Shown: one piece after another, positions 6,266 through 11,320 of the stretch
Numbering within the stretch: the first letter of the stretch is position 1
How the letters are laid out: each line of letters starts with the position of its first letter
From: Actinomycetota bacterium
Lineage (GTDB): Bacteria > Actinomycetota > Actinomycetes > Nanopelagicales > Nanopelagicaceae
Assembly: GCA_029977785.1 (NCBI GenBank)
Contig: JAPOKG010000006.1
Coordinates: 1-39,166, forward strand
DNA: 39,166 nucleotides
Direction of reading: 5' to 3'
Translations under genes and position numbers: made by a program
Notes under the pieces: generated by a model
The model's database searches: none
The model's input: only the letters and a program-made list of their open reading frames with translations
What the model was told of the DNA's origin: nothing

Positions 6266-7354
6266 GTGAAAACTTCACCTTTGCATCAGAAACATCTCGA
6301 TTTGCAGGCCAAGATGGCCGACTTTGGTGGCTGGCTCATGCCTATCGAATATCCCGGCGCTGGCGTATTAGCTGAGCATGCTGCAGTCCGTGAGCGCGTG
6401 GGGCTCTTTGATGTATCTCACTTAGGTAAGGCGAGCGTCACCGGTGTTGGAGCCTTGGATTTTCTCAATTCGCAATTCACCAATGACCTCAATCGCATAT
6501 CCGATAGCAAGGCGCAGTACACCTTGTATTGCACACCTGAAGGTGGCGTCATCGACGATCTGATCGTTTACCGAAATAGCGCCGAGGATTTCTTTCTTAT
6601 TCCAAATGCATCAAATACATCTGACGTTGTAGCAACCTTGCAGGCAAGCGCCCCAGCAGGTATTTCAATTACCAATCTTCATTCAGAATATGCAGTTCTT
6701 GCGCTGCAAGGCCCACAAGCACAAGAAGTAATACAGAGCCTCGGAGTTGATCCAGCCATGGATTACATGGCTTTTGCTCATGTAACTATTGCCGGCTGCG
6801 ATGTAATTCTCTGTAGAACTGGCTACACCGGTGAGCAGGGATTTGAAATTGTTCCAAAAGTTGAAGACGCAGTCCGTGTATGGGATGCAATTTGCATAGC
6901 AATGAAACCTTTCATGGGAGTGGTCTGCGGACTAGGTGCTCGAGACACTTTGCGTACTGAGATGGGCTATCCGCTACATGGCCACGAACTCTCACTTCAG
7001 ATTTCGCCCGTGCAAGCAAGCGCTGGATGGGCCATTGGATGGAAGAAGAACGAATTTGTTGGGCAAGCAGCTCTGCGCTCACAGAAAGAGTCAGGGAAAG
7101 TTCGCACCTTAAAGGCGCTCACTTCCTTAGATCGAGGAATTCCTCGCGCCGGCATGAAGGTCCTCAATGACTCAGGTACTGAAATTGGTGAAGTAACTAG
7201 CGGTACGTTCTCACCGAGCCTCAAAGTTGGAATTGCACTGGCCCTCATTGAGCCGGGATACGAAATAGGAACTGAAGTCGCTATCGATGTTCGCGGAAGA
7301 GCGTGCGCCGCAAAGATTACTGCGCTGCCTTTTCTGCCTTCTCACGTTCGCTAG
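6266..7354 (+). CDS. gcvT: Glycine cleavage system T protein (aminomethyltransferase)
   Basis: The 362-residue protein transfers the methylene group of the lipoyl-bound intermediate to tetrahydrofolate and releases ammonia. It carries family landmarks in order: AKMADFGGWLMPIEY and AEHAAVRERVGLFDVSH near the N-terminus, GGVIDDLIVYR (with the catalytic Asp region), GYTGEQGFEI, and LGARDTLRTEMGYPL. The GTG at 6266 is chosen because homologs start close to the TSPLHQKHLDL segment and a -10 box lies just upstream; the frame is open further 5' to 6110 only as overlap with pepA. gcvH and gcvP are not in the window. Lpd, the L protein, is encoded 1.7 kb away. The 3' end overlaps the convergent S-component gene by 38 bp. 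Confidence 0.93.
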   Translation: MKTSPLHQKHLDLQAKMADFGGWLMPIEYPGAGVLAEHAAVRERVGLFDVSHLGKASVTGVGALDFLNSQFTNDLNRISDSKAQYTLYCTPEGGVIDDLIVYRNSAEDFFLIPNASNTSDVVATLQASAPAGISITNLHSEYAVLALQGPQAQEVIQSLGVDPAMDYMAFAHVTIAGCDVILCRTGYTGEQGFEIVPKVEDAVRVWDAICIAMKPFMGVVCGLGARDTLRTEMGYPLHGHELSLQISPVQASAGWAIGWKKNEFVGQAALRSQKESGKVRTLKALTSLDRGIPRAGMKVLNDSGTEIGEVTSGTFSPSLKVGIALALIEPGYEIGTEVAIDVRGRACAAKITALPFLPSHVR

Positions 7355-8144
7355 ACCGAGCCTTAACAAATTCAATCGGAGTAAAGAATGCTGCGCGAGT
7401 GTGTGCCCTCCGTAAAGTGTGCAAAATCGGTTTACCAGTGATTGCTATCAGTGAAGCAGTAAAAATTGCACGTGGCACATCCCATGCCATCGCTGATAAG
7501 AAGTGATAACTAAGGAATCTACTTACATTCTCAGCAAAAGGCGCTCCTGCCTGATACGAAAGTTGAGTATCAGCTCCTAAAGTCCACGGCCAAAATTGCA
7601 GATCCATAGCGATCCCAAAGAAGGCTGCAGCCACAACTCCGTACAGTGCAAGTAAAACAAGTTCACTACGTCCACGAATATTGCGAGGAATGAGCCCAAT
7701 TCCGAGTCCAATCCAACCGGCTGCAAATGCTTGGTAGGCCACCCAAGGACCAACTCCACCAGTGAGAAAAGCTGACAGAACCATTGAAAGTGCGCCCAAG
7801 AGAAATCCAAAAGATGGGCCAAAAACACGTGCGGCCAGGATCAGTAAAAACCACATGGGTTCAATACCGACTGCACCAGTGCCCATAGGACGTAGCGCCG
7901 CTATAACTGCAGCTAATACAGCAAGAAGTGCAATCGACTTAGTATCCAACTTGTTATTGCTGACGCTAGCGAAGAGAAGCAAAAGTGCACATGGAACAGC
8001 GATTGCAAAGAGCCATTGTGGTCGCGCTTGCGGAGTTGAAATGAGAAAGGGCCAAATGAAACCCAATGCACTAATTACGCTGGTGGCAATAAGTGCCGGA
8101 AGAGCTAACCCTCGAAACGAAAATGCTGCGGGTGTGCGGTTCAT
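7317..8144 (-). CDS. ECF transporter S component, probable cobalamin type
   Basis: This 275-residue integral membrane protein has about six hydrophobic segments and a charged C-terminal tail. The pattern (GTGAVGIEPMWFLLILAAR, LGALSMVLSAFLTGGVGPW, AFAAGWIGLGIGL) is typical of substrate-binding S subunits of energy-coupling-factor importers in actinobacteria. Its start overlaps the stop of the EcfA gene by 4 bp, giving translational coupling within one operon with EcfT and the ATPase. The operon leader is a cobalamin riboswitch, so B12 or a corrinoid precursor is the likely ligand, in the manner of CbrT. The S-component fold is confident; the substrate rests on the riboswitch. Confidence 0.85.
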   Translation of the reverse strand: MNRTPAAFSFRGLALPALIATSVISALGFIWPFLISTPQARPQWLFAIAVPCALLLLFASVSNNKLDTKSIALLAVLAAVIAALRPMGTGAVGIEPMWFLLILAARVFGPSFGFLLGALSMVLSAFLTGGVGPWVAYQAFAAGWIGLGIGLIPRNIRGRSELVLLALYGVVAAAFFGIAMDLQFWPWTLGADTQLSYQAGAPFAENVSRFLSYHFLSAMAWDVPRAIFTASLIAITGKPILHTLRRAHTRAAFFTPIEFVKARSSEREKAEKAAQ

Positions 8145-9745
8145 GGTTGCTTCTCTAACGCCTGCATAACATCAGAGACTGTAAGCCAAGGCTTGGGTGA
8201 CATCACCTTGGCTACTTGTGGTGCAAAGGCAGGCGAGGAGAGAAGAACATCAAGGGTGGAACCATCGGCAACGATGTCACCTTCTGCCAAGAAGAGAACT
8301 CGGTGTGCGAGCTCTGCAACCAGCTCTACATCATGAGTCGCCATGAGGACTGGGCGATTAAATGTACTTGCATACTCTTTTAGGGCAACGGCAAAGAGGT
8401 TTTTAGCCTGATAATCAAGGCCTCGAGTGGGTTCATCGAGAACTAATAGTTCAGGGTTACCTGAGAGAACAATGCTGAGCACCAGAGCGAGGCGTTGCCC
8501 CTCAGATAAATCATTTGGGTGGGTGTCTTGTGAAATATGAGGAACGAGTCGTGAGAGAAAAGCAAAGGTGGAGCCTTCCGCAATTTCGTTATCGCGGTCT
8601 GCCTGCGTGCATTCAGCGCGCACAGATTGGGCATAAAGAAGATCACTTGGTTCTTGCGGAACATAACCAATACTTCGTCTTCGCTCTAGACCCTTTAATT
8701 GTGCGGGATCCTTTCCGTGAACACGCACACTTCCTTTTGTCGCAGGCTGTGAACCCACTGTCGCCTGTAAGAGCGAACTCTTACCTGCGCCGTTGCGTCC
8801 CATCACAGCGACAATCTCACCGGCGCCAATTTTTGTTGAAACACCTTTGAGCGCTTGGTGGTTACCGTAGGCAATAGTTAAGCCATCTACTTCGATAACA
8901 ACATCAGAGCTGGCTGCTATCTGTTCTGTGGTCTCAAAAGTTTGTGCGCGAATGCCTTCAGTCAAGCGCCGTACTTCCCTGACACTGGTCCCTACCTCAC
9001 TGAGGTTGAGCGCACGTGCTAAGCGAATAATCGGAGGAACCAATTGAGCGGTCTTGAGAACTTCTTCGGCGGGGCCTATAGCGGTCTCACCATTGCCTTC
9101 GATGTAAATGATGCGATCTACAAATTGAATGACCCGTTCAAGACGATGCTCAGCGATGACAACGGTGACGCTTAGATCATGAACAAGTCGGTGCAGGAGT
9201 GAGAGAACTTCTTCGGCAGCAATCGGGTCCAGCGCGCTTGTTGGTTCATCCAAGACAAGGACTTTAGGGTGCATCACAAGAGCTGCACCGATTGCGACTC
9301 GTTGTTGCTCACCACCACTGAGAGTAGCGATAGATCTATTTCGGACTGCATTAAGGCTAAGCAGATCCAATACTTCTTCTACACGTTTTCGCATAACTTC
9401 GTGCGGGAAGTTCAGAGCTTCCATACCAAATGCCAATTCTTCTTCAACAATATCGGCTACAAAACTGTTGAGTGGGTTCTGTCCAACAATTCCAACGATA
9501 TGCGCGAGAGAACCAGGCTTTACTTCACGAGTTGAAATTCCATCAACACTTATATCGCCAGCTAAAATTCCACCAGTGTGATGGGGGACAAGGCCATTAA
9601 TCAGACGCAGGAGTGATGATTTTCCTGAACCTGTCTCACCCATCACCAGAACCATCTCGCCCTCTTGAATTGAGAAGGTGAGATCTTCAATAATGGTTTT
9701 AGTTGAATGGGGATAGATCAGTGAGACGTTTGAAAATTTGATCAT
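8141..9745 (-). CDS. ECF transporter ATPase, two ABC domains in one chain (EcfA-EcfA')
   Basis: The 534-residue protein contains two complete ABC ATPase domains. Domain 1 has Walker A GETGSGKS at 36-43, signature LSGGE at 142-146 and Walker B LVLDEP at 163-168. Domain 2 has GRNGAGKS at 316-323, signature LSEGQ at 413-417 and LVLDEP at 434-439. It powers ECF transport by coupling ATP hydrolysis to EcfT. In Firmicutes the two ATPases are usually separate proteins; here they are fused, as in several actinobacterial systems. Four-base overlaps with ecfT upstream and the S component downstream show a tightly coupled operon. The second signature has Glu in place of the first Gly, which is tolerated in ECF ATPases. 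Confidence 0.93.
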   Translation of the reverse strand: MIKFSNVSLIYPHSTKTIIEDLTFSIQEGEMVLVMGETGSGKSSLLRLINGLVPHHTGGILAGDISVDGISTREVKPGSLAHIVGIVGQNPLNSFVADIVEEELAFGMEALNFPHEVMRKRVEEVLDLLSLNAVRNRSIATLSGGEQQRVAIGAALVMHPKVLVLDEPTSALDPIAAEEVLSLLHRLVHDLSVTVVIAEHRLERVIQFVDRIIYIEGNGETAIGPAEEVLKTAQLVPPIIRLARALNLSEVGTSVREVRRLTEGIRAQTFETTEQIAASSDVVIEVDGLTIAYGNHQALKGVSTKIGAGEIVAVMGRNGAGKSSLLQATVGSQPATKGSVRVHGKDPAQLKGLERRRSIGYVPQEPSDLLYAQSVRAECTQADRDNEIAEGSTFAFLSRLVPHISQDTHPNDLSEGQRLALVLSIVLSGNPELLVLDEPTRGLDYQAKNLFAVALKEYASTFNRPVLMATHDVELVAELAHRVLFLAEGDIVADGSTLDVLLSSPAFAPQVAKVMSPKPWLTVSDVMQALEKQP

Positions 9746-10485
9746 GCCAACACCAACGCCGAACTGACCACAAAGGTGATTACGACAACCGCACTATCAC
9801 TCATATGCCATCTCTCTGGCCTATAGCGACTTCGCTTTCTACTCACACCAAAGCCACGAGAGTCCATGGATGCTGCCAGTTGCAAGGATCTCGAGAGCGA
9901 TTCTTCGAGCAGAGGCAGAGCAAGCCCTCGCCAAGAAACTTTCTCGTGGCCACGTAGTTGTTGCGCTAAACGTATGCGACGAGCGCTTTGCGCTAATTGG
10001 GGAAAGAGTGAGGTTGCGATAACCAGAGTAATTCCAATTTCGTAGATAAAAAACGGCAACGTGCGAAGCACTTTGTGCGGGCTAGTTAACGAAGTAGCCG
10101 CACCGAAAAGGGCAATCACGGTCGCGATGATTAATCCTTCGTGAAGAGATGATGACAAACGCTCAAGCGTTACCGCTCCACCCAATCTAATTCCTGGCAT
10201 CCAAGAAGGTAAATCAATGATGGGCACGGTGAACAAGGTCTTCCCTGGAATGGGAACTCCGATAAGAACGCCGACAACTGCACGAATGATCAGAATGACA
10301 GCCCCTATACGCAGGGCGATCCAATAACTTCTGCCCCAAGGTGAGCCATCACTTCGCACTTTAACGAGAACGGTCGCTACAGCAACTGAGCTGAGTGCAA
10401 CCCATGCGCTATCGGCGAGCACCACCGCTGTTATCAGCAGAAGCGCCCAAATCCACATGGTGAGTGGGTGTAGCGACCGTTTCAT
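9742..10485 (-). CDS. ecfT: ECF transporter transmembrane coupling protein EcfT
   Basis: The 247-residue membrane protein has four to five hydrophobic segments and two cytoplasmic Ala-Arg-Gly-type helices that dock onto the ATPases. These read SARRIRLAQQLRG at about 167-179 and AASMDSRGFG at 204-213. It joins the S component to the ATPase dimer in the importer. The gene lies between the SCO2322-like gene (25-bp gap) and the fused ATPase (4-bp overlap). Because this operon has its own S component and a cobalamin riboswitch, it looks like a dedicated rather than a shared module. No other S component is seen in the window. Confidence 0.9.
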   Translation of the reverse strand: MKRSLHPLTMWIWALLLITAVVLADSAWVALSSVAVATVLVKVRSDGSPWGRSYWIALRIGAVILIIRAVVGVLIGVPIPGKTLFTVPIIDLPSWMPGIRLGGAVTLERLSSSLHEGLIIATVIALFGAATSLTSPHKVLRTLPFFIYEIGITLVIATSLFPQLAQSARRIRLAQQLRGHEKVSWRGLALPLLEESLSRSLQLAASMDSRGFGVSRKRSRYRPERWHMSDSAVVVITFVVSSALVLA

Positions 10486-10510
10486 CGTCAGAGTCTGTTA
10501 AACGTTCTGG

Positions 10511-11050
10511 CTACTTCTTGGCAAGTGCAGCTGGAGTTTCAATCTCTACGCCACACTCTTTCTTTGGATATCCGTTGAATCCGCAGATGAGACCAGACGA
10601 GGCTGATCGGACTTTTACAGCCTGGCCCAAAACATCAATCCCTTGTGATCCCTTAGCTGTTGTCACACAACGGACAATTGTTCTTTGTACTTTTTCACCC
10701 TTAGGTGCGTAGGCCTTGCTACCAAAATCAATGACGAGTGCAATCCGCTTTGTATCTGGATCCTTCTTCACTTTTCCGCAGATTTTGGCAAAGTCTGGCT
10801 TAACCAGTGGGGCTGCAGATGGAACATCATCACTACTAAAGACGAATGACCATCCTTCAACGGCTCCATCTTCAATATCAACTGTCGGGCCAGTCATTGC
10901 CGCCTTCCATTCAGTTGAACCTGGGGCTGCTTGAAAATACCCCCAGTAGCGCCAACCTTTAGAGGCAGCGTTTGCAGCCGGCATTGTTATTACCTGTGAC
11001 AATGCGAGGGAAATACTTATAGCGATTGTTACGTAGATGCTTTTCTTCAT
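10511..11050 (-). CDS. Secreted SCO2322-like protein, first gene of the B12 ECF operon
   Basis: This is a 179-residue exported protein. The N-terminus MKKSIYVTIAISISLAL followed by PAANA|AS is a Sec signal peptide with likely cleavage after residue 28. There is no lipobox and no second membrane segment. The mature part begins KGWRYWGYFQ and has four cysteines (in KICG, VRCV, LICG and KECG), enough for two disulfides. From memory it resembles the SCO2322 family found next to ECF genes in Streptomyces; I cannot confirm this by search. The ATG at 11050 is preferred to the in-frame codon at 11080 because AGGAG lies 8 nt upstream. Position directly after the cobalamin riboswitch suggests an extracellular role in corrinoid capture, which is inference. 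Confidence 0.78.
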   Translation of the reverse strand: MKKSIYVTIAISISLALSQVITMPAANAASKGWRYWGYFQAAPGSTEWKAAMTGPTVDIEDGAVEGWSFVFSSDDVPSAAPLVKPDFAKICGKVKKDPDTKRIALVIDFGSKAYAPKGEKVQRTIVRCVTTAKGSQGIDVLGQAVKVRSASSGLICGFNGYPKKECGVEIETPAALAKK

Positions 11051-11110
11051 GTGTGGAACTCCTGTGTCAGGAAGTTTCACAGGGGTAGCTCGCTAGCGCT
11101 CGGCCAAGAA
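11051..11110 (-). promoter_or_regulatory. Hairpin covering the Shine-Dalgarno of the riboswitch-controlled gene
   Basis: In the transcript, CCTGTG (11078-11083) can pair with CACAGG (11061-11066) across an 11-nt loop. The second arm overlaps the AGGAG Shine-Dalgarno (11059-11063) of the secreted-protein gene. No U-run follows, so translational rather than terminator control is the better fit for the riboswitch expression platform. Confidence 0.6.
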
Positions 11111-11131
11111 ACGGCCAAAAACCTTTGGACT

Positions 11132-11156
11132 ACACCCCGCAAACCTCGGCGGGTGT
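11132..11156 (-). promoter_or_regulatory. Hairpin between aptamer and expression platform
   Basis: Read on the minus strand, ACACCCGC and GCGGGGTGT form a stem with a single bulged base around a short loop, directly 3' of the B12 box. Many cobalamin riboswitches have a hairpin here whose loop contacts the aptamer. I did not establish the loop pairing. Confidence 0.5.
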
Positions 11157-11164
11157 TGGTCGAA

Positions 11165-11320
11165 AACAAGTGACATGTAGGTAATCCGACTTAAACAACT
11201 CATTACTCTCGAAAGATTCATTCGAGAATGTACAAGCCATTCTTACGGTTGCGGGTCAGCGTCGGAATTTCACCGAACTTCCCCTACAAGCCACCTATGA
11301 AGTTGTATGCGAAGAGAACC
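11165..11320 (-). ncRNA. Cobalamin (B12) riboswitch aptamer
   Basis: The minus strand carries the conserved blocks of the cobalamin riboswitch in order. GGGAA comes just before GGTGAAATTCCG (11263-11274). Then comes GCTGACCCGCAACCGT (11245-11260), and then the B12-box-like AGTCGGATTACCTAC (11177-11191). Blocks, order and spacing all match the family, so the call is firm although the outer boundaries are approximate. It precedes the secreted protein and ECF genes, and would lower their expression when adenosylcobalamin or a related cobalamin is abundant. Confidence 0.93.

Follow-up and report, generated by a model that had tools for sequence, protein, structure and literature searches.

Genomic organization of the operon

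The stretch of DNA analysed here (the window; 39,166 nt) is contig JAPOKG010000006.1 of an Actinomycetota bacterium of the order Nanopelagicales, whose genome is designated G000 below. Its minus strand carries a cobalamin riboswitch followed by the genes, in this order, for a SCO2322-family exported protein, EcfT, a double ATPase and an S component of an energy-coupling factor (ECF) transporter; the role of the exported protein is the subject of this report. A first-pass annotation, made from the sequence alone, had described the four minus-strand genes; they are real, and their families were confirmed by NF040672, PF02361, PF00005 and PF07155. The features are listed here, with "canonical-order relatives" denoting proteins in which the two parts of the SCO2322 domain stand in the reverse order.

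11125..11309, minus strand: adenosylcobalamin (AdoCbl) riboswitch aptamer RF01482 in the operon leader (56.3 bits, gathering score 50; full model 1-149)
11051..11124, minus strand: expression platform (from the sequence and predicted folds)
10511..11050, minus strand: SCO2322-family exported protein, 179 amino acids (aa) (NF040672, 152.8 bits, curated cut-off 85)
10967..11050, minus strand: likely Sec signal peptide, residues 1-28 (by eye; the conserved domain starts at the RYWGY motif)
10778..10966, minus strand: mature residues 1-63 (RYWGY ... EGWxF ... FxxIC), the C-terminal part in canonical-order relatives
10532..10759, minus strand: mature residues 70-145, the N-terminal part in canonical-order relatives (strand 1, strand 2, helix, hairpin)
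9742..10485, minus strand: EcfT transmembrane coupling protein (PF02361 CbiQ, 44.8 bits, cut-off 25)
8141..9745, minus strand: fused EcfA1-EcfA2 double ATPase, 534 aa (PF00005 in two stretches of one open reading frame (ORF))
7317..8144, minus strand: S component, 275 aa, predicted to be B12-specific (PF07155, 43.4 bits, cut-off 26.7, residues 66-245)

The cobalamin aptamer of the first-pass annotation was recovered when the whole window was scanned with Rfam, RF01482 (E 7.3e-08) being the sole RNA above its gathering score. In the predicted fold of the leader the Shine-Dalgarno sequence AGGAG (11063-11059) is paired with an upstream CUUCCU, and with this sequence sequestered the control by the riboswitch would probably be translational. 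Since the local leader fold is not clearly above that of shuffled sequences (z -1.34, not significant alone), we infer this mode from the predicted pairing.

The likeliest start of the SCO2322-family gene is the ATG at 11050, which is preceded by the AGGAG mentioned above, and not the GTG at 11080 given in the mechanical ORF list. As judged by eye, the signal peptide is without a lipobox cysteine. The protein passes the curated cut-off of its family, and a Pfam scan gave no family at E<=10; a likeness to class D beta-lactamases (E 0.12, far under the cut-off) was dropped. The mature protein has four cysteines, as had been noticed before, and all of them are invariant in alignments A1 (31 sequences) and A2 (71 sequences). 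The residues of the hairpin segment, cysteines among them, are invariant or almost so.

The T component, two ATPase domains and the S component stand together in one operon and thus make up a dedicated ECF module. The earlier description of the four genes as coupled holds for the last three, which overlap by 4 nt, and not for SCO2322 and EcfT, which are separated by 25 nt. The double ATPase scored 291.3 bits against TIGR04520, under the cut-off of 315. About 65 residues precede the Pfam domain of the S component, and a WP in this extension is invariant in alignment A6; we conjecture that it is a candidate dock for the secreted protein. A match of the folate model TIGR04518 was weak and under its cut-off, and the riboflavin label of PF07155 was not taken as the substrate, this family being broad. 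SCO2322-like genes lying mostly beside operons for other vitamins had been named as a finding that would speak against B12; no riboswitch for another vitamin was seen at gathering score in the 32 loci scanned, and another vitamin as the substrate was therefore dropped.

Conservation of the operon and probable B12 dependence in the order

We surveyed 151 genomes of the order and a draw of 396 genomes of the phylum; genomes and loci are referred to by G and L numbers, respectively. In the order, SCO2322 was found in 99 genomes and the S component in 98, with both in 96; in the three genomes with SCO2322 only (G441, G464 and G531) the locus is cut by a contig end. At 97 of the 99 SCO2322 places RF01482 has a same-strand match (E<=0.001) upstream, 57 of these matches being at gathering score and 40 below it, and the distance from riboswitch to SCO2322 domain is 105-242 nt in 94 places and about 1.26 kb in 3. 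The two misses (G522 and G474) end a few bases from a contig end, and in these genomes an N-terminal piece and the riboswitch are found together on another contig. Each of the 73 loci that span no fewer than 8900 bases has the order SCO2322-EcfT-ATPase-S on one strand, as do 88 of the full set of 98, the remaining 10 being shortened by contig ends.

This constancy supports the earlier proposal of a self-contained, B12-regulated ECF importer, and the survey of co-occurrence proposed with it showed that SCO2322-like genes adjoin cobalamin riboswitches in most loci examined. Judged from sequence and gene context, the secreted first gene is likely to handle corrinoids. The window genome encodes the B12-dependent methionine synthase MetH, and CbiC was found in none of the 151 genomes, which is what B12 auxotrophs would show. 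We also observed acI-type SCO2322 genes in records titled Bifidobacterium breve or Streptomyces griseus (L248, L261, L288, L297, L301 and others), that of L248 being 92% identical to the window protein; these records are probably mislabelled freshwater metagenome-assembled genomes.

SCO2322 is most probably a permuted relative of the transcobalamin beta domain

In the phylum draw the SCO2322 model matched 54 of the 396 genomes, 13 of them above the cut-off. Eight weak-match loci (L112-L119) encode a longer secreted protein with the domain, followed by EcfT, a double ATPase and an S component, and in the weak-match genomes G390, G366, G134 and G284 HMMER aligned the halves of the model in reversed order. 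For profile-profile comparison the SCO2322 set held 99 of 102 rows (three without the split motif were left out) and the DUF4430 set, standing for the transcobalamin-type SLBB proteins, 29 of 30 loci (L182, in the wrong frame, was left out). The canonical-order set consisted of 11 actinobacterial domains picked by motif pattern in 24 loci and is biased towards sequences with the motif.

Against the canonical-order set, the rotated SCO2322 profile scored 161.9 over 117 columns and the unrotated profile 94.8 over 54 columns, with a null maximum of 19.2 in 100 column shuffles. A rotation scan (ten points, 40 sequences) peaked at 170.1 near 0.4 and had its minimum, 98.9, in the unrotated state. 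The canonical group scored 41.1 over 99 columns against DUF4430 (null maximum 16.5, 100 shuffles), and rotated SCO2322 reached 35.2 across 91 columns, where the highest of 100 nulls was 21.0. A family of lone domains, described below, scored 36.6 against rotated SCO2322 (null maximum 20.8) and 19.3 against the unrotated profile. Thus homology with PF14478 (DUF4430) over most of the domain is seen at the profile-profile level, and the curated PF14478 model itself matched neither the window protein nor anything in G000. The strand order of PF14478, S1-S2-helix-hairpin-S3-S4-S5, is not that of SCO2322, whose elements are rotated in both the sequence and the structure model, so that SCO2322 is a permuted relative and not a plain PF14478 member. 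Our conclusion is that SCO2322 and the beta domain of transcobalamin and intrinsic factor are in all likelihood related by circular permutation. Searches of Protein Data Bank (PDB) sequences with hmmsearch gave nothing at E<=10 for the lone family and just an L,D-transpeptidase (E 0.28) for the canonical set A4; since a DUF4430 protein likewise retrieved no B12 carrier, this test is blind here.

Some other architectures were observed in the phylum. Locus L116 (2-2596) encodes a single protein with weak toroid-family matches, two tandem canonical beta domains and CW_binding_2 cell-wall-binding repeats, with a second beta-domain gene and ECF genes downstream; this is an intrinsic-factor-like architecture in an actinobacterium, and tandem domains may be the kind of intermediate from which a permutation can arise. 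In L245 and L246 DUF4430 proteins stand directly ahead of ECF genes, and L246 also has a 1537-aa protein with DUF4430, immunoglobulin-like and beta-propeller matches.

Structure model of the secreted protein

The mature window protein was modelled with AlphaFold2 from 71 sequences (the window protein and those of 70 of 80 loci), and the model had a pLDDT (predicted local distance difference test) of 92.5 and a pTM (predicted template modelling score) of 0.88. Its elements are strands 3-13 and 36-44, a short helix 59-63, strands 72-80 and 97-104, a helix 109-116, and strands 119-121, 127-130 and 140-143. By element order, strands 119-121 and 127-130 follow helix 109-116 at the place expected for the hairpin of transcobalamin-type domains.

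When 400 PDB chains were re-aligned to the model with VIA-align, 5 reached Z>=2, and 4 of these were B12 carriers with Z 2.7-2.8: haptocorrin (4kki), the transcobalamin beta domain with cyanocobalamin (5np4), intrinsic factor (2pmv) and bovine transcobalamin (2bb6). The alignments with the carriers are confined to model residues 68-138, as the permutation predicts; the stretch of residues 70-145 is the part that aligns to haptocorrin, transcobalamin and intrinsic factor. According to the title of 5np4, the human transcobalamin beta domain was solved with cyanocobalamin bound, which indicates that a beta domain of this type can hold B12 without a toroid.

A putative toroid partner in other Actinobacteria

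In the eleven loci L100-L110, whose genomes are Streptomyces-like by SCO-family scores, and in many canonical-order loci, a gene for an alpha/alpha toroid lies just upstream of the beta-domain gene. All 23 aligned toroid proteins match NCBIfam SCO2321_fam (NF053823) at E<=0.01; at E<=0.1, SQHop_cyclase_C was hit by 22 of them, Prenyltrans by 17 and PF01122, a cobalamin-binding family of eukaryotes, by 1. Of the 54 phylum genomes with a match to the SCO2322 domain, no fewer than 44 also have a SCO2321-family hit at most 3.5 kb from it, this count being a minimum; the other ten are G000, G062, G134, G284, G102, G058, G362, G166, G335 and G225. Within the order the family was seen in just 3 of 151 genomes, under the cut-off and between the riboswitch and SCO2322, and no alpha/alpha toroid partner of the intrinsic factor/transcobalamin type was found in the window genome. 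Upstream of an ECF ATPase gene, L229 encodes a DUF4430 protein, a toroid protein and a SCO2322-like domain.

The SCO2321 proteins of L100-L110 end in a hydrophobic segment (alignment A5), and NCBIfam labels the family a membrane protein; we conjecture that SCO2321 could hold SCO2322 at the membrane in these loci. Taken together, the data suggest an intrinsic-factor-like binder split between two genes, SCO2321 and SCO2322, with just the beta half kept in the genus of the window.

The link with B12 regulation extends beyond the order. A cobalamin-clan aptamer at gathering score was found directly upstream of the operon in L100, L104, L106, L109, L114, L117, L229, L235, L237, L239 and L242, and aptamers slightly under gathering score (E<=0.0014) in L101, L105, L108 and L110.

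Alternative B12 modules at one genomic site

The ECF operon of the window is flanked by an aldo/keto reductase gene and by gcvT-pepA. Among 98 SCO2322 loci read, the reductase was present in 92, gcvT in 85 and both in 80. A further 20 loci were picked by their riboswitch; 19 come from 18 of the 52 order genomes without SCO2322, and 1 is from G402. In 9 of the 20, BtuF-BtuC-BtuD stand beside gcvT-pepA; the reductase was seen in 3 of these 9, which extend just about 500 bases past the riboswitch. In four others, all of genus g239, a lone canonical-order domain stands beside gcvT-pepA with the reductase on the other side, and an AdoCbl or cobalamin riboswitch lies ahead of the gene (L213, L214, L216 and L226). 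The four g239 genomes with the lone domain gave no S-component match, and two g239 genomes with this form, the near-complete G403 and G406, gave no FecCD, CbiQ or S-component match.

Five loci of the genus of the window carry BtuFCD without these neighbours in the stretch read, and in one of them, L208, BtuFCD is followed by CobU and CobS. BtuF and BtuC were confirmed by Pfam in L208 and L217 and identified by phmmer in the other loci. L225 and L215, the last two of the 20 loci, have second AdoCbl riboswitches, the one ahead of metE and the other ahead of a gene for a ribonucleotide reductase that contains an RNR_N domain; the latter enzyme is probably B12-independent, and both riboswitches fit the usual B12-sparing logic.

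The lone domain on viral contigs

The lone domain was also found on two IMG/VR contigs, IMGVR_UViG_3300043446_001534 and IMGVR_UViG_3300046804_001481, in which genes for a class II ribonucleotide reductase, a cobalamin adenosyltransferase and the lone domain follow each other in this order (L328 2394-5477 and L331 2403-5486). The viral domain is 46% identical to the g239 protein. Both contigs also have a WhiB-like gene and a match to a phage-type reductase family, and together with the IMG/VR label these genes suggest that the contigs are phage. By eye, an N-terminal hydrophobic segment of the viral domain suggests a membrane anchor, and the module probably serves the AdoCbl supply of the phage's reductase. 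Searching the viral contigs with A1 and A4 gave no relative; the lone domain had no match in the phage records and SCO2322 none in the plasmid records. A single-sequence AlphaFold2 model of the viral domain (pLDDT 34) was not used.

Proposed function of SCO2322 and its alternatives

We propose, with a probability of roughly 0.7, that SCO2322 catches a corrinoid outside the cell and delivers it to the S component of a B12-regulated ECF importer. When intracellular AdoCbl is low, the riboswitch would permit expression of the operon. An ECF importer of cobalamin or other corrinoids would be assembled from EcfT, the double ATPase and the S component dedicated to it, and the first gene would supply a Sec-exported beta-grasp domain, the permuted relative of the transcobalamin/intrinsic-factor beta domain, that captures the corrinoid outside the membrane and passes it to the S component as BtuF does for BtuCD. 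In many other Actinobacteria SCO2322 and a SCO2321 surface toroid may act as a split intrinsic-factor-like binder; in the genus of the window the beta domain would act alone.

Several observations weigh against this proposal. On the structural side, a Foldseek search of the window model against PDB gave nothing at E<=0.001, and the VIA-align Z values (2.7-2.8) are low, the fifth chain, an unrelated DNA deaminase (9k3e), also having Z 2.7; the alignments carry weight because they agree with the sequence result and fall in the expected half. Rotation of SCO2322 lengthened its alignment with DUF4430 from 65 to 91 columns and barely raised the score (33.8 to 35.2), and in the 40-sequence scan moved it just from 37.6 to 41.7, so that most of the case for the permutation comes from the canonical-order actinobacterial set. 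The S-component profile A6 found no PDB chain at E<=1, a weak test as S components diverge strongly, and no anchor that would retain the window SCO2322 protein at the cell is visible. The toroid cavity has a major part in B12 binding as described by Burroughs et al. (2007, PMC1796856), and SCO2321-family matches are absent from the window genome (0 in G000, 77% complete). The SCO2321 model gave 11 of the 396 phylum genomes over the curated cut-off and 124 at E<=0.001, and it also matched 3 of 14 control genomes; some phylum matches may therefore be other toroid proteins. As to riboswitches, no cobalamin riboswitch was found in L102, L103 and L107 of the eleven loci L100-L110 at E<=1, and none at gathering score, the only level scanned, in L111, L112, L113, L115, L116, L232 and L233; those of L118 and L119 lie outside the operon leader.

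Part of this evidence would suit a structural partner that binds no corrinoid itself, its ligand site having been lost with the toroid, and that attaches to EcfT or to the outside of the S component, where it stabilises the importer or gates access. Such a role would account for an operon-linked gene in the window genome and in the 148 of the 151 genomes of the order where no toroid matches, and the N-terminal extension of the S component with its invariant WP and the lack of a visible anchor on SCO2322 agree with it. It does not explain the lone gene under a riboswitch in the four g239 genomes without an S-component match, nor the lone gene beside B12 genes on the IMG/VR contig. The near invariance of the hairpin-segment residues and cysteines and the cyanocobalamin held by the isolated human beta domain of 5np4 also argue against it, and we consider it unlikely. 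It seems more improbable still that SCO2322 binds another corrinoid or tetrapyrrole, such as cobinamide or haem, or strips B12 from extracellular binders, the importer taking up that form. The AdoCbl riboswitch senses the end product and not the imported form, and the CobU and CobS genes after BtuFCD in L208 indicate that cobinamide salvage occurs in the genus; against this stand MetH of the window genome, which needs cobalamin, and the IMG/VR version, whose neighbouring adenosyltransferase and class II reductase point to cobalamin. Finally, the riboswitch and the ECF genes could form the B12 system with SCO2322 as a bystander secreted protein kept by operon inertia. That we hold to be very improbable, as SCO2322 leads the operon in all 73 complete loci and its profile and fold likeness to B12 carriers was found independently of gene context.

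Capture of a corrinoid by SCO2322 and its delivery to the importer can be joined with the lone domains into a broader picture, for which we see even odds. The permuted intrinsic-factor beta domain would be a stand-alone extracellular B12 receptor feeding an ECF importer in abundant freshwater Actinobacteria; related lineages would keep an apparently membrane-anchored canonical version under the same riboswitch without a recognised B12 importer; and a phage would carry the canonical version to steer the B12 capture of its host to its own adenosyltransferase and B12-dependent ribonucleotide reductase.

This work offers a testable function for two uncharacterised families, SCO2322 and SCO2321, and links bacterial ECF uptake of B12 with the family of B12 carriers found in animals. 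It suggests a way in which the B12-auxotrophic acI bacteria scavenge scarce B12, and should the beta domain work alone, the largest of the vitamins would have a minimal receptor. The lone domains of g239 genomes and of the IMG/VR contig point to a B12 entry route as yet unrecognised.

Comparison with known systems

The first-pass annotation had stated that no known ECF system uses an extracellular binding protein; at the level of prediction this is wrong. Secreted SLBB proteins of transcobalamin type, frequently combined with an alpha/alpha toroid, were described by Burroughs et al. (2007, PMC1796856) from operons that also encode a CbiO-like ATPase and a CbiQ-like membrane protein, and were predicted there to scavenge B12. 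Nor is the B12 role of the ECF module new here, a B12 ECF module having already been proposed for acI genomes (Kang et al. 2017, PMC5301498). What the earlier annotation lacks is the probable kinship to the beta domain of transcobalamin, the putative partner toroid and the permuted order. In the open-licence literature we found no published account of SCO2322 and, for SCO2321, none on this subject, with one mention concerning, by its title, a transdermal peptide. What appears to be new is SCO2322 as a permuted relative, SCO2321 as its toroid and the rarity of the toroid in the order, together with the interchange of BtuFCD and the ECF module at a single site and the occurrence of the lone form on viral contigs as well as in g239 genomes. 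A beta-grasp domain that has undergone circular permutation is already known from the UFD of E1 (PMC1949818), and a cobalamin hairpin sets the transcobalamin group apart in TEDLH (PMC13385337).

The acI module of Kang et al. belongs to the same lineage and has the same riboswitch and module; the secreted first gene is not discussed in the part of that paper available. ECF-CbrT of Lactobacillus delbrueckii (PMC5997447) is likewise an ECF importer with a B12 role, whereas here the module, the S component and the secreted partner share one operon. A comparison of the S-component profile with chains of known structure, made with CbrT in view, gave no PDB match at E<=1, which says little given the divergence of S components. 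BtuFCD resembles the present system in having an extracytoplasmic capture protein first in the operon, the same riboswitch family and, in 9 loci, the gcvT-pepA neighbourhood, but BtuF (PF01497) and the BtuC permease (PF01032) are unrelated to SCO2322 and the ECF parts.

With the bacterial transcobalamin-type SLBB proteins (PMC1796856; PF14478 DUF4430) SCO2322 shares, on the available description, a secreted beta-grasp domain, the hairpin after the helix, a toroid in many relatives, an operon with ECF-type genes and a predicted role in B12 scavenging. It differs from them in being permuted and unrecognised by PF14478 and in that no toroid gene was found in the genus of the window. The available text on that clade names low-GC Gram-positives, planctomycetes and euryarchaea and does not mention SCO2322. 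With intrinsic factor, transcobalamin and haptocorrin (2pmv, 5np4, 2bb6 and 4kki) half of the beta domain aligns structurally, though weakly. A toroid and a beta domain are the same pair of parts as SCO2321 and SCO2322; in the bacteria, by contrast, the parts are encoded by separate genes and the beta domain is rotated, and in the window it stands as the beta domain only.

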